This document shows positions 6,780 to 19,712 of a DNA stretch of 64,000 nt, in pieces. The notes under the pieces were generated by a model. The model did not search any database, was not told where the DNA came from, and saw only the letters and a list, made by a program, of their open reading frames with translations. Source of the DNA: Cavenderia fasciculata (Eukaryota; Evosea; Eumycetozoa; Acytosteliales; Cavenderiaceae); assembly GCF_000203815.1 (NCBI RefSeq), contig NW_004457736.1:1364001-1428000 (forward strand), given 5' to 3'. The translations under genes and the position numbers were made by a program. Numbering within the stretch: position 1 is the first letter of the stretch; every line of letters starts with the position of its first letter.

Positions 6780-8036
6780 TTAATATTTTCTTGTAATTAC
6801 TCTTGCTCCTTGATCATCATATTCACTTTTATTGATCCAAAGTTGGTCAGCTCTTTAAATAATAATAAAAGGTTAATAAATAAATAAGATAATTAATTTT
6901 TTGTTGCTTGTTTTAAACTTACAATGATGACTCTGCAATCTGGCAACCTCCATCCCATGCCAAATGTTGACGGTTTTCAAGACAGAATATTTGTATGTTT
7001 GAATTGGATGGTCCACCCACAAACTCTTTCTTTACTCTTTCTTCAAATCCTTTCATCATTGTTGTTGCTCCACAAAATACAACTTTTGATATCTCACTTT
7101 GTATATCTTTGTCACACTAAATAAATAAATGTTAAATGTTTGTTGCGTAAGTATGATATATGTATACATTTTTGTTATCAAACATACCTTTTTAATTGAA
7201 TCACGAATACCAACTTGAAAACTAGTGTCTGGGCGACCCATCAATTGAGGATTGAATAGAGCTTCACCACAATTGGATAATAATTGATGACTGATATTTA
7301 CCAATTGTCCATCGGGTAGTTCATATGATTGTGTGTCTTTATCTTTGTCAGTAGTGAGAGACACATAGACAAGTTTCTCTTTGATATCTCTAACGATTTG
7401 ACGATCACGACTAGATACATTTAAAGAAAGACCATCTTGTTTGAGCAACTCTAAAAGGTATCTAGTCAGATGATCACCTCCAAAATCCAATCTAGTGCTT
7501 GCTTTTGGTATGTCTTTACCCTCGTTGATTGGGACTATATGAGTAACACTCTCACCTATATCCACTACGGTTCCGTAAGAATACCAGCTGCGTAAAGTGA
7601 TAAAGTAGACTGTTGAGCAAATGACAGTTGGGGACATTTAAATTTCTCAAACATCATTTCAGCCTCTTTTTCACGACCAACCTTTGAATTGTCAGGTGAC
7701 TCTGTCAAAAGGATTGGATGTTGAGATGGTTCAATACACATTAAATCTTTGAAACAATATTGTCTGAATTTTTCCAAATCATCAATATTTACAATTAATC
7801 CATGTTGTATTGGGTATCTAAGAGTATCTCTAAAAAAAATATATTAGTATTTATAATTACCTCTCTCTCTTAACTCTAGGTTAATTTACATACGATTTAT
7901 ATAATGCATCCAGGCCTATATTGCCAGCAGAACCCTAACAAGATGGAATGATATGTTGAGGACAACCATCTTGAGACGAACCCAATTTGCACCATCCCGA
8001 TCCATTGTCAATTATAATTGGTGTATCTAAATCCAT
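6780..8036 (-). pseudogene. Divergent actin-related gene with in-frame stop and 1-nt frameshift
   Basis: Four exons can be traced on the minus strand: 8036-7894, 7829-7188, 7116-6923 and 6852-6780, each with GT/AG ends and compatible phases. The product is actin-like throughout: IIIDNGSGWCKLGS at the start, LRYPIQHGLIVNIDDLEKF, HPILLTE, VVDIGESVTHIVPINEG (phosphate loop 2), [19 protein letters not shown], then LWINKSEYDDQGARVITRKY in place of the usual HRKCF end. It is much more diverged than the three actins downstream. A TAG stop (7937-7935) follows IIPSC in exon 1. About 17 residues of the D-loop region are missing there. A single base is lost between 7575 and 7574, after AAGILT. Splice sites remain good, so decay is recent, or splicing or sequence error masks it. 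I call it a pseudogene with that caveat. Confidence 0.75.
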
Positions 8037-9212
8037 ATAAATAAATAAATATATAAATCAAATGTAAATATGTTTTATGAATATGAAATGATGATGATGG
8101 TAAACATTGCATTTGTGATCACATGATGCAATTTCACAACAAACATATTTTTTGTAGAATGGTTTGGTTGCATTAATGGTTATGGTTGGTGTGTGTGTGG
8201 TAAGTATGTACCCACTGTTTTGCGTGTGTTGGTCAGGTCAATGAATGAATGTGCCAAGTGGGTAGTTTGTTTATATGGTCAATGATTGATGGCGATTCTT
8301 CAATTTGACTAGAAATCATTAGGCCAAATAAACAAACTACCCATTACCCATATTTCTCGATGGTCTTTGCACCACTATTGGAGATTGAGGTCAGAGTCCC
8401 AAATGAATTCTACGAACTACCCATCCTTATCACAGAGAGACTTGACGATCCTGCCATGAGAAAAGAGAATCTGATTTTGGGTTGAAAAAGGATACCAAAC
8501 GATTTCAACAAACAACACCTATGATTAATAAATAACATAGTTTTATTATTTAATAATTATATATATATACCTACAAAGAATACTTCTAAACTTTTTTATG
8601 ACTAATTTTGTCTCTCACTTTATTGAGTACCACAAAATTTTTTTTTCTTTTTCTTTTCTCTGCAGATAATTAAAAGAGATAGATAGAAATAACAATAGGT
8701 CATAACGTACATGATTAGGTCAACCTTTGTTTTATATAGAACAATTGATCATTCATTCATTATCAAAAATGATGATAAAGAACTGTTAGTGACTTGTGTC
8801 ATCAACCACCCTGTACTATGTAATCACACCGTGATCAATTTAAAGACAACATGCACTCAAAAGGCAGAGCTAGGTGGATAGGTTTGACAGATGGATGAAG
8901 AATCAAGTAACAAACCGACTTCTACATTAAATTTCAATCATTCATTAGAAGGTATTATTATTATTATTATATTATAATCATACTTGCTGGTCTAGTGTAG
9001 GTAGTATGGTAAATAATTGGTGGTAAATTCGTTGAACAAGACTCGAAAAAAAAATCATATGACATAATGATGGAAATTACAAGACGAAAGAAAACCTATA
9101 AAAGAGGTTTGAATATCAACCATTATTATCAAACAAACAAACAAACAAACAAACAAATATTTATATATATATATTTTAAAGGTAATAATAATAATAATTT
9201 TAAAAAATAATA
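8037..9212. other. Divergent spacer between actin-family genes
   Basis: No gene is seen. The spacer separates the minus-strand actin-related gene from the first plus-strand actin, and so should carry both promoters. A long imperfect hairpin lies at 8260-8342. Immediately before the actin ATG are A-rich and TA-rich runs (about 9130-9210), as is usual for dictyostelid leaders. Confidence 0.6.
8260..8342. repeat. Imperfect inverted repeat (hairpin), arms about 29 nt
   Basis: The left arm starts GGGTAGTTTGTTTAT at 8260. The reverse complement of the right arm, ending at 8342, starts with the same 15 bases and continues to match through TGG and AATGATT with three mismatches or indels. The loop is about 25 nt. 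It could be a cruciform, a remnant of a small palindromic element, or a transcript hairpin. Confidence 0.7.
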
Positions 9213-10444
9213 ATGGAAGAAATTCAAGCACTAGTAATTGACAATGGATCTGGTATGTGCAAAGCTGGGTTTGCAGGTGATGATGCTCCACGTGCTGTAT
9301 TCCCGAGTGTTGTCGGTAGACCAAGATACTCTTCAGTTATGGTTGGCATGGGCCAAAAGGATTCATTTATTGGTGATGAAGCTCAATCAAAGAGGTATGA
9401 ATAATGTGACACATAATATTCTGGTCATCAAAAAATATTTATATTAATATTTATTTATTTATTTATTTATTTATTAAATTATTTAATTATTTAATTTGTA
9501 GAGGAATTCTTACAATGAAATATCCAATTGAACATGGTATTGTAACCAATTGGGATGATATGGAAAAGATATGGCATCATACATTCTACAATGAATTACG
9601 TGTTGCTCCTGAAGAACATCCAGTATTGTTAACCGAACCACCACTCAATCCAAAGGCAAATCGTGAAAAGATGACTCAAATCATGTTTGAAACATTCAAT
9701 ACCCCGGCAATGTACGTATCGATTCAAGCAGTACTATCATTGTATGCATCGGGTCGTACTACTGGTATTGTACTCGATTGTGGTGATGGTGTCTCTCACA
9801 CTGTACCCATCTACGAAGGGTATTCTTTACCACACGCTATTCTACGTCTTGATCTTGCAGGTCGTGACCTTACCGATTACATGACAAAGATCCTCACTGA
9901 ACGTGGATACTCATTTACCACAACCGCCGAACGTGAAATTGTTCGTGACATTAAAGAAAAGTTGGCCTATGTCGCTCAAGACTTTGACGTTGAAATGCAA
10001 GTAGCTGCCAACTCTTCGCAGCTGGAAAAGTCGTATGAACTACCCGATGGACAAGTCATCACGATTGGCAATGAACGATTCCGTTGTCCAGAGGCACTGT
10101 TCCGTCCATCATTCCTTGGTATGGAGTCTGACGGTATCCACGAAATCACCTACAACTCGATCATGAAGTGTGACATTGACATTAGACGTGAGCTTTACAA
10201 CAATATCGTACTCAGTGGTGGATCGACAATGTTCCCAGGAATGGCCGATAGAATGCACAAGGAAATATTCGCACTTGCACCAAGTACAATGAAAGTTAAA
10301 GTCGTTGCTCCACCAGAACGTAAATACTCTGTCTGGATTGGTGGTTCCATCCTAGCATCACTCTCCACTTTCCAACAAATGTGGATCTCTAGAGATGAAT
10401 ACGATGAATGTGGTCCATCCATCGTACATAGAAAGTGTTTCTAG
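9213..10444 (+). CDS. Actin (conventional-like), first of tandem cluster
   Basis: Two exons, 9213-9394 and 9502-10444, encode 374 residues, the normal actin length. The intron splits the codon for Arg in SKRG. The sequence is close to conventional actin: [35 protein letters not shown], phosphate loop [11 protein letters not shown] and the [10 protein letters not shown] end. Residues that serve ATP hydrolysis (Gln137, Asp154 and His161 in muscle numbering) are all kept, and the D-loop keeps the VMVGMGQ core with its two methionines. Changes such as Tyr-Ser-Ser for His-Gln-Gly at the start of the D-loop set it apart from major actins. Its role is a filament-forming cytoskeletal ATPase. It leads a head-to-tail cluster of three; the next copy starts 571 bp downstream. 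The leader is A-rich. Confidence 0.95.
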
Positions 10445-10689
10445 AAGAATATTCAAATTAAATAACAAATAATAATTAAATAATAATAACAAATAATAAC
10501 AAACAAACAAATAATAATTAAATTATAATAATAATAATAATAATAATAACGATCAATTACAGGCGATATAACCTACACCAAATTACAACCCTAAATCATT
10601 TGTACATAATTATCATGGTTCACACAATCCAAAACCAACACAGAAGATGCTTTATAGGGGAAAGTTGATTTTATCCTTTCCAACTCTTG

Positions 10690-10739
<50 letters not shown>

Positions 10740-11015
10740 CTATCTTTTTTTAATAAATATTTTTAATTAAAAATGATTTATATATATATTAGATATATAT
10801 AATATATAAATATTATTTCATAACCAACAAGTATTATTTATTTTTTCCTTTTTATTTTTGTTTTCTTTCAAAAAAAAACAAAAGATATTTGTAATCATAG
10901 GATGATGAGTTAGTTAATATCAAAAGATGATAAAGATCTATCATCAATTATCTCATCAAGTACATTAAATAGATAGTATTAATAATAATCATAATCATAA
11001 CTATAATAATTTATA
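10445..11015. other. Spacer between actin genes, (TATC)12 microsatellite
   Basis: No gene. A (TATC)12 run at 10691-10738 follows AT-rich sequence downstream of the first actin. TA-rich and A-rich stretches precede the next ATG at 11016. Confidence 0.75.
10691..10738. repeat. (TATC)12 microsatellite
   Basis: Twelve uninterrupted TATC units in the spacer between the first and second actin genes. Confidence 0.95.
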
Positions 11016-12259
11016 ATGGAAGATATTCAAACTATTGTGATTGACAATGGATCAAATATGTGCAAGGCTGGTTTTGCAGGTGATGATGCTCCTCAAGCTG
11101 TATTCCCTTCTATAGTAGGTAGACTAAAATACTCTGAAGTTATGGTTGGCATGGAGTTGATAGATACATTTGTTGGTGATGAAGCACGATTAAAGAGGTA
11201 TAAAATTATGCAATGTGATCACATCACATGACACTTGATGATATCATCATTTTTGAAGAAATAAAAGATATCTAACAACATCTTTATTTTAATCTTTATT
11301 TATTTTAAAATAGAGCTCCACTTACAATAAAGAATCCAATTGAACGTGGATTTATAACTAATTGGGATGATATGGAAAAGATATGGCATCATATATTCTA
11401 TAAAGAGTTACATGTTGCTCCAGAGGAACACCCTGTATTGTTAACAGAACCACCCTTCAATCCAAAGTTTAATAGAGAAAAGATGACTCAAATCATGTTT
11501 GAAACATTCAATACCCCATCTCTCTATGTGTCTATACAAGCAGTACTATCATTATATTCATCTGGTCGTACTACTGGTATGGTACTAGACTGTGGAGACG
11601 GTATGACCTATTCGGTACCCATCTACGAGGGTCATGCTCTACAACACGCTATTCAACGTCTTGATATAGGTGGTCGTGACCTTACCGATTATATGACAAA
11701 GATACTCAATCAACGTGGATACTCGTTTACAACAACTACCGATCGTGAAATGGCATGTGATATTAAAGAGAAACTAGGTTATGTTGCATTAGACTTTGAC
11801 GAGGAAATGCAGGTAGCTACCAATAATTCGACGCAATTAGAAAAGTCCTATGAATTGGTTGATGGACAAGTCATCACGGTTGGTAAGGAAAGGTTCAGTT
11901 GTCCAGAGACATTATTCAATCCATCATTAATATGCAACGAATCTGATGGTATCCACCAAATGACCTACAACTCGATCATAAAGTGTGATGTTGATATTAG
12001 ACGCCAACTTTACAAAAATATCGTACTTGGCGGCGGTGGATCGACAATGTTCCCAGGAATGGCCGATAGAATGCAAAAGGAGATATTAGGACTTGCACCA
12101 AGTGCAACGAAAATAAATGTCATTCCTCCAGCACACAAATACTCTGTCTGGGTTGGTGGTTCCATCCAAGCGTCACTCTCCACCTTTAGACAAATGTTAA
12201 TTACCAAGGAAGATTACGATGAATTTGGTCCATCCATCATACATAGAAAGTGTTTCTAG
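11016..12259 (+). CDS. Divergent actin, second of cluster
   Basis: Exons 11016-11197 and 11314-12259 encode 375 residues. The intron is at the same Arg codon as in the other two actins. The reading frame is full length and ends [10 protein letters not shown]. It differs at normally fixed places. The first phosphate loop reads DNGSNMC (Asn for Gly15). The second reads [10 protein letters not shown] (Tyr for His161). The D-loop ends MELID in place of MGQKD. The helix after the intron reads [13 protein letters not shown]. The P-loop-adjacent strand has one extra Gly in LGGGGSTMF. Gln137 and Asp154 are kept. An altered nucleotide cycle is likely, though folding should be preserved. The open frame with many substitutions argues for a retained, specialised actin rather than a pseudogene. 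Confidence 0.9.
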
Positions 12260-13028
12260 AAATAAAACTTGTTCATTTATTTATTTATTTATTATTTCTT
12301 TTATTCTTCTTTTCTAAATATGCAATTTGACCAGATTCCATTCGAAGTCTATTAAAACTACCTAGGTAATCACTTTTGCACCACGTTTTTTATCAAACCA
12401 AACATTATAGCCTGGTACAACAAAAACGGAATTATAATCACTGTCCAATGTGAAATTAGAGGTGCCGAATCAACAACAACTACTGGAACTTCTACGACGA
12501 CTGGAACATCCACGACGACTGGAACGACAACAGGTACATCAACGACAACAGGTACCTCAACGACAACCGGAGTATCAACAACAGGATGTGTAACACATTG
12601 TGCAGTACTTTACAGTCAACCAGAGTTTAAGGGAGAACATGAAGAAATGAAAGAAGGAATGAAACAAGCAAATAGGGATTGGTGGTCTATCTTCCTTGGT
12701 GATCCCAAAGATGAATTTGCAGAAGGACCAAGCCCATTAGAAATGGAGAGTGTAAAACCAAGTGACTTCCATAAGCACCACATTGCAAATGGAAACAATC
12801 AGATGCAAATTAATCAACCTTTCAAAAACATAAAATAAACAAGTAAAAAGATTGTGTTTTTTTTCTAATTTTCAACGAAACGAACAAGAAAAAAAACTAT
12901 TGGGATACTTTCAAATTTGTTGATCATTAATAGATTGTATACATTTGATCATACATGTAATTTGTAGTCACTCAATCTATTATATATATTATATATATTA
13001 TAATAGTAACCTATAGTTTCTAGTAATA
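12260..13028. other. Spacer between second and third actin genes
   Basis: Apart from the decayed Thr-rich reading frame described separately (12320-12838), the spacer holds AT-rich sequence and TATAT runs just before the next actin ATG. No functional gene is supported. Confidence 0.6.
12320..12838 (+). pseudogene. Decayed ORF with Thr/Ser/Gly repeat linker
   Basis: From ATG 12320 to TAA 12838 one frame is open over 172 codons except for a single TAA at 12353-12355. After the stop come a hydrophobic and aromatic patch (NIIAWYNKNGIIITV), an acidic Cys, then about 40 residues of STTTGT-type repeats. A C-terminal part follows with two Cys (CVTHC), NRDWWSIFLGDPKDEF and a hydrophilic tail. Thr-rich linkers of this kind join modules in secreted and matrix proteins of dictyostelids. 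I do not recognise the family. The most likely reading is the 3' remnant of an extracellular or cellulose-binding-type protein whose 5' part was lost when the actin copies were inserted. A short functional ORF from ATG 12647 (63 residues) cannot be excluded. Confidence 0.45.
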
Positions 13029-14266
13029 ATGGAAGATATACAAACTATTGTCATTGACAATGGATCGGGTACATGCAAGGTTGGGTTTGCAGGTGATGAT
13101 GATCCACGTGCTGTATTCCCGAGTGTTGTTGGTAGACCGAAAAACTATGATGCTGTCATTGGCAAGTTTAAAAAGGATTCATTTGTTGGTGATGAAGCTC
13201 AATCAAAGAGGTACATATATGCAATCAATGATCATCAATAATCGTTTCAGATAACTTTTATTAATACTTTAATCTTTACTCTGTTTTAAATGGTCGATTT
13301 CAATTTGTGTATAGAGGATATCTTACTATAAAGTATCCAATTGAACGTGGTATTATAACCAATTGGGATGATATGGAAAAGATATGGCATCATACATTCT
13401 ATAAAGAGTTGGGTGTTGCTCCTGAAGAACATCCAGTATTGTTAACAGAACCACCACTCAATCCAAAGGCAAACCGTGAAAAGATGACTCAAATCATGTT
13501 TGAAACATTCAATACACCATCTATCTATATATCAATTGATGCAGTACTTTCATTATATTCATCGGGTCGTACAACAGGTATGGTACTCAGTTGTGGTGAT
13601 GGTGTGACGCACACAGTACCCATCTACGAGGGTCATGCTTTACAACACTCTATTCAACGTCTTGATATAAGTGGTCGTGACCTAACAGATTACATGGCAA
13701 AGATGCTCAATGATAGAGGACATGATCAAATCAAGTTTACTGCACCTGCCGAACTAGCGATTGCACATGATATTAAAGAGAAGCTTTGTTATGTTGCAAC
13801 AGACTTTGACCAGGAAATGGAGACATCGATCAACTCTACACAGTTGGATAGACACTATGAACTACCTGATGGACGTACATTGACTGTTGGTAATGAACGG
13901 TCCAGGTGTCCCGAGGCACTCTTCCATCCATCACTACTTTGTAACGAATCTGATGGTATTCATGAAATGACCTACAACTCGATCATGAAGTGTGATGTTG
14001 ATATTAGAAGAGATCTTTACAACAACATCGTACTCAGTGGTGGATCGACAATGTTCCCAGGAATGGCCGATAGAATGCACAAGGAAATATTCGCACTTGC
14101 ACCATGTGCAACGAGAATAAAGATCATAGCTCCTCCAGACCGCAGAGATTCTGTCTGGATTGGTGGTTCCGTCCTCGGCTCACTCTCCACCTTTCAACAA
14201 ATGGTAATCACCAAGAATGAACACGATGAAATTGGTCCATCCATCATACATAGAAAGTGTTTCTAG
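13029..14266 (+). CDS. Actin-like protein with altered catalytic residues, third of cluster
   Basis: Exons 13029-13210 and 13315-14266 encode 377 residues. The intron is at the shared Arg codon, with a GTACAT donor. The frame is intact to [10 protein letters not shown]. The D-loop is rewritten ([12 protein letters not shown]), losing both methionines of VMVGMG. Gln137 is Asp ([12 protein letters not shown]) and Asp154 is Ser ([12 protein letters not shown]), while His161 is kept. A two-residue insertion lies in the loop [20 protein letters not shown]. In conventional actin Gln137 and Asp154 position the water and Mg2+ for ATP hydrolysis, so this protein is predicted to be a poor ATPase. Whether it polymerises is unknown. 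A pseudo-enzymatic actin with a regulatory or capping role is an inference. Its 3' end is 118 bp from the broken F-box/LRR copy. Confidence 0.9.
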
Positions 14267-14383
14267 AAATAAAATGTGGGTCATAATAAAAAGTTAATCT
14301 TCATCCAAAATATAAAAATAACAATATTATTTTAAAGATTAATAAATTTAAATATAAATCTTTGAATATAGTTTAAATATTAC

Positions 14384-16851
14384 AGATTCGTTGGTAGATC
14401 ACTCCTCACTTCAAACGGATGGAAAGAGAGACCCTCTTTACAAGTAAGAACTCACCTTCAAATGGCACAGAAATTCCAAGATGAACAATTAAAAAGAGAT
14501 GAGATGTGCCCACTCCACCAATTTATCACAGACATCAAGAAAAGACCTTCATTCAATTTAAAGGTAGGCATGCGTACCAATTCTACAAGGTATCTCGGGT
14601 TGGTTGATGACAGCAATATATGGAAACTATCTTTAGCTCTCGTCTCCAAGAGACTATTCAACTTGGTGTCGACTAGTCTATTGACCAAAATCACTGTATT
14701 CCCCACCATTGAAACGAGCAGACATATTCTAAATCCATTTTGTGTCATCAAGAGAGCCAATCATCTTACTCTTCTACCATCAAATAGAGGTTATATGGCA
14801 GGATTCTCCAATTCCAAAGATGTTGTGCGGTTTGCAAATAGTGTACCAAGTCTTTTTAATGCAACCAAGATCGACCTCCAAGGAACAACTTTATCTGATT
14901 CTAATGTTTATCAATACTTTAATTTCGACTATTCCACCATCCCCTTTTTAATATCCAACTTTATCCACCTCACTTCAATCAACCTTTTAAATTCATACAT
15001 AACCAATCAATATCTTGACTCCCTACCACTTTTGTTAACGTCATACACTTCCATTAAAAAAATTCTTTTACCAATCTATTTTGATTGAAATGTACTGGAT
15101 CCAATTGTCAAAAAAAGGGTAGAAGTTTTATCATTTTTTGGAGATGGATCTCTTCAATTATTACAACAACTTGACAATATTGTCTACTTTTCAAGTCTCA
15201 GACATATAGTAATTGATGCTCAGATCGATTTGGATGAATGGAATGATATAAAATTAGCAAATAGTGTTGTCAAGGTGACACTTATTAAATGTCCAAAGAA
15301 TATTTTATTGTTTCAAAAGAATACTCAAATTAAAACAATTCGATTTCTAAATAATGTTTCCCAATTTGATTCAAATCAATTCATTAGAATGATATTGGAA
15401 GATTTAAGTTGTCTCCCATTCAATGAAATCCAATCAAATGTAGAGAATATTATTATTCATTCACCAACCTCTATTTTGGAAAGTGATGTAAATCAATTTC
15501 AAAAAAATGGGTATCAATATATTGGATCAACATTTACCAAAAATTCAAATTACAAATTACAATTTAAAAGAATCCAAGAATCTTTTGGAAATTCAATCAA
15601 TCAATCTATTCAACAACCAACATTTCAAGATGATAAAATGAAATTGGATAATAATAATATTATTAGTATTATTAATAACAATCACCAGGTACTCCCAAAT
15701 TATATTCTCTTTAATATTATTAGATTGGTTTGGGATTCAAGAGGCAATTGTACATGTCTTTATGATCAGAGTATCAGGGAAAGAATTAAAAATGATGGTT
15801 TAAAATTATTGGACAATCAAGAATTTATGACAAAGCTAAACAATATCAAATCCAATTGCCAAGTACATTTTTCAACAAAATCTGCCTATCATCCAGCTGG
15901 ATTAAATGCCAAACATGTCAATCGATCAAGACTACAACTATCACTCATATCAAAGTCATTTTTTAGATTCATCCAATCAAACTATTTCAACCAATTTGTG
16001 CTCAAATCATATTCAAACGACGACGATCATTTGGAAAACAAAAATTGTTTGTTAAACCATTTCACATCACTCTTTATTTATGATAATAGCCAGTTACATT
16101 CTAAAAAAATGACTTGTCTTAATTTTGATCAAGATAAAATTCTCAATATGACTGAAATGTCAATTAGACGTGGATTCTTTCCAAAAGGATATCTAGCACA
16201 ATTTATAAATCTCCAATCTCTGACAGTCCATTCAAACAATAATCCCATCCCATTTGAATGTTTTCAAAATCTAAGAAAATTGGATATTGGTAATTTCGAT
16301 TTACGTCATCTCAGATATTTTACATTAGATAAAGATCTATCAGAAAGTTTAAATGGAAACCACTAGAAAAACTATATCTCCATGTTGACATTAGAGAACA
16401 AGTCTATCTATCATTATCAGATGATATCAAAATGTCAATGAAATCGATTTTGATCAATCTCAACTCAACCAAAGATATAACTTTATTGAACCAATTTCCA
16501 AATATCAAAGAGTTACATATAGATAATTCAGATTCTTTTCCAAACCGTGTTGTTCCTCCAACAAGAATCAAAAAACTGATTGGATGTCTTTCAGAAAAGA
16601 TTTCCTTTTTCCTAAAGATCAATCAATCAATTGAAACTTTTAAATCTCTGCTCCTGGATGACCATACAGACCCCAATTCAATGGTTTGTGATTTAACTGA
16701 TGCAAACCATATTAGAAATCTAATCCTTCAAACTAGTTTAAATACTTCCAATAATTTATTATCTTATCCAAATTATAAACTTGAATCTAGTGTCTCTAAA
16801 TTTTCTTACCAAGAATTTACTACATTATATCTAAAAAGAATAAAACAATAA
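14384..16851 (+). pseudogene. Broken copy of two-module F-box/LRR-like gene
   Basis: Homology to the intact gene at 17061-19712 begins near 14384 and runs to the terminal LYLKRIKQ at 16851. The first 55 or so codons are missing. The early part (14384-14460) has drifted, and a stop breaks it before the first usable ATG at 14462. A TGA at 15086-15088 replaces the Trp codon of the sibling's YYDWNLLDP. A one-base loss at about 16355-16360 shifts the frame where the sibling reads LKGKPIEKLY; downstream sequence then matches again in a new frame (MSMKSILINLN). The second module (YILFNIIRLVWDSRGNCTC, LSLISKSFFRFIQSNYF) is intact. Three lesions point to a pseudogene. Fragments of 208, 378 and 139 codons remain open and might be mistaken for genes. 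Confidence 0.8.
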
Positions 16852-17060
16852 AAAGAAGAGAGAGAGAGAGATTCAAGATAAAAATATTTCTAATAATAAA
16901 TTTAATTATTTTTGAAAAAAGGTCTAGAAAACAAACAAAACTCACCTCTTTTTTATTTTTTATTTTGGTATCTCTATTTACTTACTAGTAACAAACATCC
17001 TTCTCTCTCTTATTTACAATTTATATTTATAAAATATATATCTATATATATATAACAAAA

Positions 17061-19712
17061 ATGAATAACTTTGAAAACACATTCAATCAAGTAGATGACC
17101 AATCAAGTAAAAGGACACTTCCTTGGTTATTAATCACAAAAATCATTAGATATGCATATGATTTTAGTAGTATATGTACATGTGTCAACACAAACCGGTT
17201 AAGAGGTGTATATAATGAACATAATCGATTCGTTTGGGATACACGATCTAAACTAGAGAATTTAGAAAAAATAAGGGATGATGGCACTTGCTTGAGAGTA
17301 ACAGCTCACCTTCAAATGGAACAGAGATTCAAAGAAGAACAATTAAATAGAGATGACATGTGTCCAATTCACCAATACATCATTGACATTAAGAAAAGAC
17401 CTTCATTTAATTTCGTTGGTGATTTTCCTTCAAACAAGTATCTCGGGTTGGTTGATGACAGCAACATAAGGAAACTATCTTTAGCGCTCGTCTCCAAGAG
17501 TCTATTCAACTTTGTGTCTACTCGTCTCTTTACCAAAATCAAGATAATGCCCACCATTGAATCGCAGACACATATCCAAAACCCATTTTGTGTCATCAAG
17601 AGAGCCACCCATCTTTCTCTATTACCACTAAATAGATACGGTGGAGGAGCTTCAATCTTGGATTATCAAGATATTCAAAGGTTTATCAAAGATGTCCCTA
17701 GTCTATGTTGTGATGTGGAAGAACTCATCTTTAAAGGTCAAACCTTTTTAGACTCTGAAACTCTCCTAATCATCACTGCCAATCTTCCCAACATCACATG
17801 CATCCATCACCACCGAAAGACCGACGGAACAACCATCAATGAATTATTCACCAACTTTACCAAAGTTACATCTTGGGATCTTTCAAATGTATCCATTAAC
17901 AACTCTAAGAGTCTTGATCAACTACCACTGTTGATTAAATCAGACTCCCCGATTAGAAAGATAATTTTACCAAACTATTATGATTGGAATTTACTGGATC
18001 CAGCGGTCAAACAAAACCTAGAGGTTTTATCATTTCAAGAAAAAAAATCATATCATCTATTACTTGACCTGCAGGATGATCATTCCTCATTTCCAAGTCT
18101 TAGACATATAATACTTGATGGTTATTATTTAAAGGAATGGATAGATTTAAAATTACCAACCACAGTTGTAAAGGTTACACTTTTATCATGTCGAAAAAAG
18201 AAATCACTTTTATTCTTTAAAGAAAACCCACAAATCAAAACAATTAGATTTCTAAATATTTTTTACCAATTGGATACATTTTGTAATCATTCTTTACAAT
18301 TGGATGATATAAGTTGTCTCCCATTCAATGAAATCCAATCAAGTGTAGAGAATATTATCATTCATTCACCAACCTCTATTTTGGAGAGTGATGTAAGACA
18401 ATTTCAAAAAAATGGTTATCAATTTATTGGATCAACAGCTGCAAGAAATTCAAATTTTAAATTACAATTTAAAAGAATGGAGGATTCTGAATACGAATCT
18501 TTAAATCAACTTATTCAACCACCATGTACATTTCAAGTTAAAAACAAGAAATTTTATAAAGACTATTGTGGTAGTAGTAGTCAAAATATACTCCCAAATT
18601 TCATTCTATTCAAGATTATTGGAATGGTTTGGAATTTAAGAGGTAGTTGTACATGTTGTCATAATCAGAGTATCAAAGATAGAATTAAAAATGATGGTAT
18701 TAAATTATTGGACAATCAAGAATTTATGAAAGAATTGGAAAATATTAAATCAAATTGTGCGGTTCATTTTTCAACCAAAACTGCCTATCATCCAGGTGGA
18801 TTCAATTCAATACACATCAATCGATCAAGATTTCAACTGTCTCTTTTATCAAAAGCTACATTTGGATTTATTCAATCAAATTATTTCAACACCTTTATTC
18901 CCCCTTTAGAGTCAGCCTCAATGTCTGTTCATTTGGAAAACAATTATTGTTTGTTGAACCATTTCACCTCACTGGAATTGTTTCATGACCGTCCTTATGA
19001 ATCATCTTTGGATTACTTTCTAGGTAAATCTCTTACGATTACTGAGATATCATTCAATGTAATAGATATTCTTGATAAATACAGTGATACCTACAACTTT
19101 TATCAGAAAACGGCCAAATCTTTTATCCCACTGGATATTCGATATTTGGAGAACCGTGGAGCTTATCATATAATCGACCACCAACTATCAGAACAATTAA
19201 AAGGAAAACCAATAGAGAAACTATATATCCATGAAGATCAACGTAAAAGTGTTTATGAATCATTATCAGATGATACCAAGATGTCAATGAAATCAATATT
19301 GATCAATCTAAACGAAGATCAAGATCTTGTACTTTTAAACCTCTTTCCAAATGTAACACAGTTGCATATTGACAAATCAGATATAATCCAAAATATCATT
19401 CTCCCATCTAAAAGAATTAAGAAAGTGATTGGATACGCTTACCAAAAGATTACTAGTTTTCTAAAGATCAATCAATCAATCGTAACTTTTAAAACACTCT
19501 TTAAAAGTTTTAATGAGATTGGGTATCTAGAATCTCTAGTAAAAGATAATGATTTAGTAGATGCAATACATATTAGAAATCTAGTCTTTCAAATTAGTTC
19601 AACACCTTCTAAAAATCTATTATCTAATCCCTACTTTCAGCTTGTATCTAGTATCTCCAAGTTTTCAAACATTGAATTGACAACTTTATATCTAAATAGA
19701 ATAAAACAATAA
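17061..19712 (+). CDS. Two-module F-box/LRR-like protein of a dictyostelid family
   Basis: A single exon of 883 residues. It consists of two related modules. Module 1 opens with an F-box-like helix pair (LPWLLITKIIRYAYD, then a CTC motif) and later LALVSKSLFNFVSTRLFTKI. Module 2, from about residue 510, opens ILPNFILFKIIGMVWNLRGS with CTC again and LSLLSKATFGFIQSNYF. Each head is followed by irregular leucine-rich repeats with Ser/Thr and Asn-rich loops. No signal peptide or membrane segment is seen. Proteins of this build are numerous in dictyostelids; by analogy the F-box-like part would bind Skp1 and the LRR part a substrate, but neither is shown here. The gene is in direct tandem with its broken copy upstream. 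The terminal motif TLYLNRIKQ is shared. Family resemblance is firm; function is inferred and weak. Confidence 0.75.
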   Translation: MNNFENTFNQVDDQSSKRTLPWLLITKIIRYAYDFSSICTCVNTNRLRGVYNEHNRFVWDTRSKLENLEKIRDDGTCLRVTAHLQMEQRFKEEQLNRDDMCPIHQYIIDIKKRPSFNFVGDFPSNKYLGLVDDSNIRKLSLALVSKSLFNFVSTRLFTKIKIMPTIESQTHIQNPFCVIKRATHLSLLPLNRYGGGASILDYQDIQRFIKDVPSLCCDVEELIFKGQTFLDSETLLIITANLPNITCIHHHRKTDGTTINELFTNFTKVTSWDLSNVSINNSKSLDQLPLLIKSDSPIRKIILPNYYDWNLLDPAVKQNLEVLSFQEKKSYHLLLDLQDDHSSFPSLRHIILDGYYLKEWIDLKLPTTVVKVTLLSCRKKKSLLFFKENPQIKTIRFLNIFYQLDTFCNHSLQLDDISCLPFNEIQSSVENIIIHSPTSILESDVRQFQKNGYQFIGSTAARNSNFKLQFKRMEDSEYESLNQLIQPPCTFQVKNKKFYKDYCGSSSQNILPNFILFKIIGMVWNLRGSCTCCHNQSIKDRIKNDGIKLLDNQEFMKELENIKSNCAVHFSTKTAYHPGGFNSIHINRSRFQLSLLSKATFGFIQSNYFNTFIPPLESASMSVHLENNYCLLNHFTSLELFHDRPYESSLDYFLGKSLTITEISFNVIDILDKYSDTYNFYQKTAKSFIPLDIRYLENRGAYHIIDHQLSEQLKGKPIEKLYIHEDQRKSVYESLSDDTKMSMKSILINLNEDQDLVLLNLFPNVTQLHIDKSDIIQNIILPSKRIKKVIGYAYQKITSFLKINQSIVTFKTLFKSFNEIGYLESLVKDNDLVDAIHIRNLVFQISSTPSKNLLSNPYFQLVSSISKFSNIELTTLYLNRIKQ

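Follow-up and report, generated by a model that had tools for sequence, protein, structure and literature searches.

Three actin genes, here called A1, A2 and A3, stand in tandem at positions 9213-14266 (+ strand) of a 64,000-nucleotide stretch of Cavenderia fasciculata DNA (contig NW_004457736.1; "the window" below means this whole stretch), and two of them, A2 and A3, have lost residues that are invariant in a reference set of actins and are held in intact frames by purifying selection. The ATP pockets of A2 and A3 have lost the special constraint seen in other actin relatives, and the codon adaptation of both genes is low. Our tentative reading of these sequences, to which we give somewhat less than even credence, is that A2 and A3 are low-abundance actin isoforms that are selected to act as actins and in which the normal step of ATP hydrolysis has been lost or changed. 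The main rival reading is that redundant copies are slowly decaying.

The three genes encode 374, 375 and 377 amino acids, and exons, GT..AG introns at codon 62 and Pfam coverage agree that they are full-length actins with a common intron site, as a preliminary description of this DNA had proposed:

9213-10444, + strand: A1 actin gene, exons 9213-9394 and 9502-10444; 374 amino acids, ATPase residues intact
9395-9501, + strand: A1 intron, 107 nucleotides, GT..AG, phase 2, codon 62
11016-12259, + strand: A2 actin gene, exons 11016-11197 and 11314-12259; 375 amino acids; G15N, H73R, V159M, H161Y, R210C, G268C, extra Gly after 299
11198-11313, + strand: A2 intron, 116 nucleotides, GT..AG, site as in A1
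13029-14266, + strand: A3 actin gene, exons 13029-13210 and 13315-14266; 377 amino acids; M16T, H73R, Q137D, D154S, R210H, G268C, K336R, rewritten D-loop
13211-13314, + strand: A3 intron, 104 nucleotides, GT..AG, site as in A1

Each gene has one intron, in phase 2 within the Arg62 codon, and none of the three intron lengths is divisible by 3; the frames contain no internal stop and are open to a terminal HRKCF, also as first described. The Pfam Actin profile (PF00022) runs from residue 2 to the C-terminus of all three proteins, scoring 430-495 bits. Relative to Act8 of Dictyostelium discoideum (PDB 3chw_A sequence), whose numbering is used throughout, A1, A2 and A3 have zero, two and three inserted residues and A2 has one deleted; in other words, all three match the actin profile at full length without large insertions. 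A1 is 89% identical to Act8 and 89.7% identical in amino acids to L001, a conventional actin of the same genome, and A2 and A3 are each 73% identical to Act8 vs 51-52% to the Arp1 part found in this genome, which places them nearer to actin than to Arp.

Residues changed in A2 and A3

The ATPase residues differ among the copies much as the preliminary description claimed, and the codons agree. A1 retains G15, H73, Q137, D154, H161 and R210, with S155C and T303S as the sole changes among the 26 pocket residues defined below. A2 retains Q137 and D154 and carries G15N (GGT to AAT relative to A1) and H161Y, and A3 retains G15 and H161 and carries Q137D (CAA to GAT) and D154S (GAT to AGT), so that the set Q137, D154 and H161 is complete in A1 only. 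The D-loop of A3 is indeed rewritten and without its two methionines, being changed at 10 of the 15 positions 38-52 (including M44V and M47K); A2 is changed at 9 of the 15 and retains both M44 and M47.

Several changes come in addition to those described earlier, namely H73R in both proteins, the loss of R210 (to Cys in A2 and His in A3), the loss of W356 from both, and the indels: A2 carries two insertions, an Asn after 231 and a Gly after 299 (close to the second phosphate loop), and lacks residue 331, and A3 has three extra residues after 198. Further changes in or near the pocket are V159M in A2 and M16T and K336R in A3. The plug changes F266L, G268C and M269N are common to both. Retained in both are the nucleotide-site residues D11, S14, K18, D157, G158, K213, G301 and G302. 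The suggestion that these copies might be pseudo-enzymes holds at the level of sequence only, where catalytic residues are changed and dN/dS is below 1.

How unusual are these changes? A scan of public prokaryote contigs with a four-actin alignment gave 65 loci, some of them partial and two frame-broken; over all 65 rows, position 137 is Gln in 57, another residue in 4 and a gap in 4, position 154 is Asp in 62, His in 1 and a gap in 2, and position 161 is His in 59, another residue in 5 and a gap in 1. For the reference, 21 of the 65 rows were dropped: 10 lay on contigs labelled as bacterial, 10 were incomplete Asgard sequences, and one was L088, a divergent actin of Lokiarchaeal origin that has A15, R73 and K161. 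The remaining 44 full-length Asgard rows were joined by Act8 and by L001 and L006, both from the genome studied here. G15, H73, Q137, D154, H161, R210 and G268 are invariant in all 47 of these chosen rows, which upholds the earlier claim that the changes fall at otherwise fixed residues; exceptions to this invariance do exist, as the dropped rows attest.

Among bacterial-labelled contigs (L031, L032, L033, L034, L035 and L082), four of six full-length open actins lack Gln137, having Gly, Asn, Ala or Ile instead, and L034 (Thiosymbion, on a contig of 2.0 Mb) carries D154H as well. Loss of the catalytic Gln may be a recurrent event among eukaryotic-type actins of bacterial genomes, the shorter contigs being possible contaminants.

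Within the genome itself, we compared actin relatives in an alignment of 24 rows that includes Act8. D154 is present in the 23 rows other than A3, position 137 is Pro in Arp1 and L018 and Ala in L019, and D157 is changed in L016, L018, L019 and L026. Five more divergent actin-like genes have altered ATP pockets: L016 (G15W, D157Y), L018 (Q137P, D157Y), L019 (Q137A, D157H), L022 (G158T, V159A) and L026 (D157G), all in long open frames, the reading of L018, L019 and L022 starting after the first exon. Pocket-altered actin relatives are thus a recurrent class in this genome, and the A2/A3 case is less singular than the preliminary description implied. Among these relatives A2 and A3 are the closest to true actin, at 73% identity to Act8 vs 29-49% for the five. 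Additionally, two near-conventional copies show odd single changes, L008 (S155W and others) and L007 (H88P and others); they may belong to the bulk actin set and be in decay.

Selection and history of the copies

Selection on the genes was estimated with our own codon model of five taxa (A1, A2, A3, L001 and L006), with one ratio of nonsynonymous to synonymous change (dN/dS, or omega) per branch group over 368 codons. Omega is 0.046 on the conventional branches, 0.13 on A1, 0.26 on the A2+A3 stem, 0.21 on A2 and 0.45 on A3, figures that are rough because the model uses no site classes and the synonymous distance (dS) to L001 is large, at 1.4-2.0. The data reject a value of 1 for A2 (p 4e-10), for A3 (p 0.006) and for the stem (p 0.011). 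When codon columns 297-331, a stretch of near-identity between A1 and A3, are removed, the estimates become 0.19 for A2 and 0.43 for A3 and the verdicts do not change. The guess that the frames look selected rather than dead is thus confirmed by the dN/dS test: purifying selection holds A2 and A3, relaxed in comparison with conventional actin (about 0.05), and neither the broken frame nor the dN/dS near 1 of a pseudogene is found in either. Full frames of 374-377 codons together with dN/dS below 1 are more than chance would provide. Changes also avoid invariant sites overall (A2, 25 of 144 invariant vs 54 of 141 variable sites; A3, 19 of 144 vs 57 of 141), and on the branch of A3 alone 8 of 144 invariant vs 22 of 141 variable sites are changed (p 0.007).

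The ATP pocket shares in this relaxation. We took the pocket to be 26 residues, of which 16 are ATP-contact residues from a legend in PMC1852557 (numbering less 2; the legend says 17) and ten are further residues added to these. In A2 and A3 together, 15 of 52 pocket cells are changed vs 187 of 693 elsewhere, an odds ratio of 1.10. In two sets of relatives grouped after inspection of the residue table, the corresponding counts are 21 of 141 vs 817 of 1976 (odds ratio 0.25, p 6e-11) for Arp1, Arp2, Arp3, L015, L014, L010 and L011, and 42 of 103 vs 876 of 1483 (odds ratio 0.48) for the five altered-pocket genes, for which the start of L022 was left out as it is in the wrong frame. From residue 62 upward, a region covered by nearly all rows, the ratios are 1.47, 0.23 and 0.48, respectively. 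The ratio of 1.10 in A2 and A3 vs 0.25 in relatives indicates that special protection of the pocket has been lost and that nothing has targeted it; selection aimed at the pocket finds no support, as the pocket changes at the average rate (A2, p 1.0; A3, p 0.52).

Codon adaptation to the conventional actins, with L001-L005 as the reference, is 0.25-0.33 for A1-A3 (0.25-0.27 for A2 and A3), compared with 0.80 for L001 (itself part of the reference), 0.77 for L007, 0.75 for L008 and 0.39 for L006, whose sequence is near-conventional; seven other frames of the window lie at 0.16-0.44. These values hint at low or restricted expression, as opposed to bulk actin.

The preliminary description saw a stepwise loss of ATPase residues along the cluster, and this part does not stand. 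A2 and A3 pair as sisters with support 97/99 in the protein tree, of whose 14 inner branches 10 are unresolved, and relative to the state common to L001 and L006 the two share 43 derived sites, vs 10 for A1 and A3 and 6 for A1 and A2. H73R and G268C, being common to both, arose before the A2/A3 split, the four catalytic changes (G15N, H161Y, Q137D and D154S) arose after it, and R210 went to a different residue in each. A3 therefore never went through the state of A2, and the stepwise series gives way to a relaxed ancestor followed by two separate catalytic losses. Local duplication, also proposed earlier, is supported. The tree unites A1-A3 with modest support (62/84, with the position relative to Arp1 among the unresolved branches), and the silent distances (pairwise dS 0.45-0.61 within the trio, at least 0.99 to L006 and L001) and the intron agree with a single origin; the intron at codon 62 is only partly proof of this, as L014 of the same genome has one a single codon later. 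A runs test on all variable sites found an A1/A3 tract at codon columns 303-327 with 26 agreeing sites and 69 identical nucleotides (none of 10000 shuffles gave one as long) and a weak tract at 308-320 in each of the other two pairs (p 0.04 each); a gene conversion test on the silent columns variable within the trio found nothing (p 0.61-0.98).

Near the cluster lie an old actin copy and a frame of another kind:

6786-8018, - strand: A0, old actin copy with a broken frame; three pieces (7146-8018) are 38-48% identical to A1
12356-12838, + strand: Thr-rich open frame, non-actin, between A2 and A3

A0 has two in-frame stops in its first exon and a frame change near 7574, together with a 31-nucleotide intron-like gap (7830-7860) near the intron site of A1-A3 and a final piece that matches weakly (6786-6845, E 0.006). 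Its pieces retain Gln, Asp and His at 137, 154 and 161 despite the broken frame. An actin fragment spotted by eye on the + strand near 8362-8480 was dropped, as tblastn at E 1 found none. The Thr-rich frame has a CVTHCAVLYSQPEFKGEHEEMKEG tail and a sole Pfam match, New_glue, below the cut-off. Directly downstream of the cluster, at 14372-19712 (+ strand), are two large open reading regions that look similar to each other by eye, the first broken by a stop and a frame change and the second an intact frame of 906 codons.

Possible roles and rival explanations

If A2 and A3 are indeed working isoforms, they would descend from an A1-like actin by local duplication, would still bind nucleotide, given the nucleotide-site residues that they retain, and could enter filaments of bulk actin, where their subunits would hydrolyse ATP slowly or not at all and might thereby keep a young, ATP-like state; the D-loop and hydrophobic plug changes would alter the longitudinal contact. 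Expression, nucleotide binding, co-assembly and slow hydrolysis are all things that we infer. Published work makes such behavior conceivable. In F-actin, the water that probably makes the attack is held by Q137, and another, on D154 and H161, may take the proton; the Q137A mutant is slower and Q137A/D154A/H161A is without measurable ATPase (PMC9646518). The triple mutant binds nucleotide and profilin and polymerises, and its filaments stay ATP-bound (PMC6867828). By analogy with these mutants and with Arp8 (PMC3510490), A3 would be expected to bind ATP and to hydrolyse it slowly or not at all. Of the two, A3 makes the better case. For A2, weak nucleotide binding is predicted to be just as likely, as its first phosphate loop is changed (G15N) and a Gly has been gained beside the second.

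A bolder proposal is that selection maintains A3, and perhaps A2, as ATPase-arrested actins of natural origin, supplying low levels of non-ageing subunits that would make filament segments ATP-like and cofilin-resistant, with A3 immune to Mical-type oxidation (Mical oxidises actin at M44 and M47; PMC10705957). We consider this unlikely as a whole. The role of ATP hydrolysis in actin has so far been probed by engineered mutants, and a natural actin without these residues, if selection truly maintains it, would suggest that cells have a use for non-ageing filaments and would offer an amoeba test system. Decaying copies would be informative too, showing what share of the constraint on actin is owed to the ATPase cycle.

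Several points weigh against A2 and A3 as functional isoforms with an altered hydrolysis step. A3 retains H161 and gains an acid at 137, which may partly replace D154, A2 retains Q137 and D154, and Q137A alone merely slows actin (PMC9646518). The D-loop, plug and W356 changes could block polymerisation altogether. On the branch of A2 alone, the avoidance of invariant sites is not significant (14 of 144 invariant vs 20 of 141 variable sites, p 0.28). Searches for dictyostelid orthologs of A2 and A3 in the own genome, genome contigs, viral contigs and PDB sequences gave only the D. discoideum actin in the PDB, and one scan of viral contigs gave 151 pattern matches, none of them a relative. Lastly, the loss of pocket constraint fits decay as well.

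Decay is a serious possibility, if a doubtful one. A2 and A3 would then be redundant duplicates in a process of birth and death, under relaxed selection and heading to become pseudogenes like A0, with their changes tolerated and without a cellular role. Their omega is about 5-10 times that of the conventional branches, their pocket evolves like the remaining protein, their codon adaptation is low (0.25-0.27 vs 0.75-0.80), a broken copy already lies upstream of A1, and among the actin genes of D. discoideum seven are potential pseudogenes (PMC2441452). On the other hand, after a long time of divergence (trio dS 0.45-0.61) both terminal branches have an omega significantly below 1, neither gene has acquired a stop or frameshift, both retain GT..AG splice sites, and their changes avoid invariant sites overall.

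Less probable still is that A3 is a variant enzyme, its acid shifted from 154 to 137 and the network of metal and water rebuilt into a working ATPase with other kinetics. Q137D and D154S together preserve the acid count at these two positions, H161 is in place, and tight ATP binding by Arp8, which has Glu137, makes an acid at 137 compatible with ATP binding (PMC3510490). Yet Asp is shorter than both Gln and Glu, D154 is kept by Arp8 as by all other 23 alignment rows, and the A3 pocket residues R210 and K336 are changed too. An artefact of assembly or sequencing (read errors or collapsed repeats) is very improbable: tandem paralogs with a 69-nucleotide identical stretch (A1/A3) can misassemble, but there are three complete genes with distinct introns and flanks, and three of the four catalytic changes (Q137D, D154S and G15N) each lie two bases from A1 within one codon with the frame kept, which single sequencing errors do not explain.

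Comparison with known actins

Conventional actin, i.e. the Act8 group (PDB 3chw_A; L001-L005), is of the same family and length as A1-A3 and has the same HRKCF end and most of the same phosphate-loop residues. A2 and A3 differ from it by lacking invariant residues, by their changed D-loop, plug and W356, by low codon adaptation and by the intron at codon 62. In D. discoideum, more than 95% of actin is of the Act8 type and the rarely expressed isoforms are most likely regulatory, not structural (Joseph et al. 2008, PMC2441452), and the actins of D. fasciculatum form species-specific groups (Fig. 8 of that paper). The minor non-Act8 actins of dictyostelids are likewise species-specific divergent groups beside a conventional set; such minor actins are thus already known, and A2 and A3 belong to this kind. 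The abstract and sections 10-12 of that paper give no residue-level account of catalytic-site loss, and A1-A3 may be drawn in its figures. Among the titles and abstract starts listed in word searches of open-licence papers, we found no match for natural actins without these residues or for D. fasciculatum actin genes.

The actins of Paramecium (PMC1852557) also form a large family, several members of which lack ATP-contact and contact-loop residues. They are ciliate proteins and more divergent (80% down to 30% identity to other actins), and no pair like A2 and A3 is described in the parts of that paper used here. Arp8 carries G15T, H73R, Q137E and H161S, all at positions that are also changed in A2 or A3, and its ATP binding is tight and its basal ATPase low (PMC3510490). 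Arp8 has large insertions and is a non-polymerising subunit of INO80, whereas A2 and A3 are of actin length, 73% identical to Act8, with two (A2) and three (A3) inserted residues relative to Act8 and no large insertions. The nearest parallel in the catalytic residues is the engineered Q137A/D154A/H161A actin (PMC6867828), of whose three residues A3 changes two and A2 one. Compared with that mutant, A2 and A3 are natural, use other substitutions (Asp, Ser and Tyr), never combine all three, and carry many further changes.

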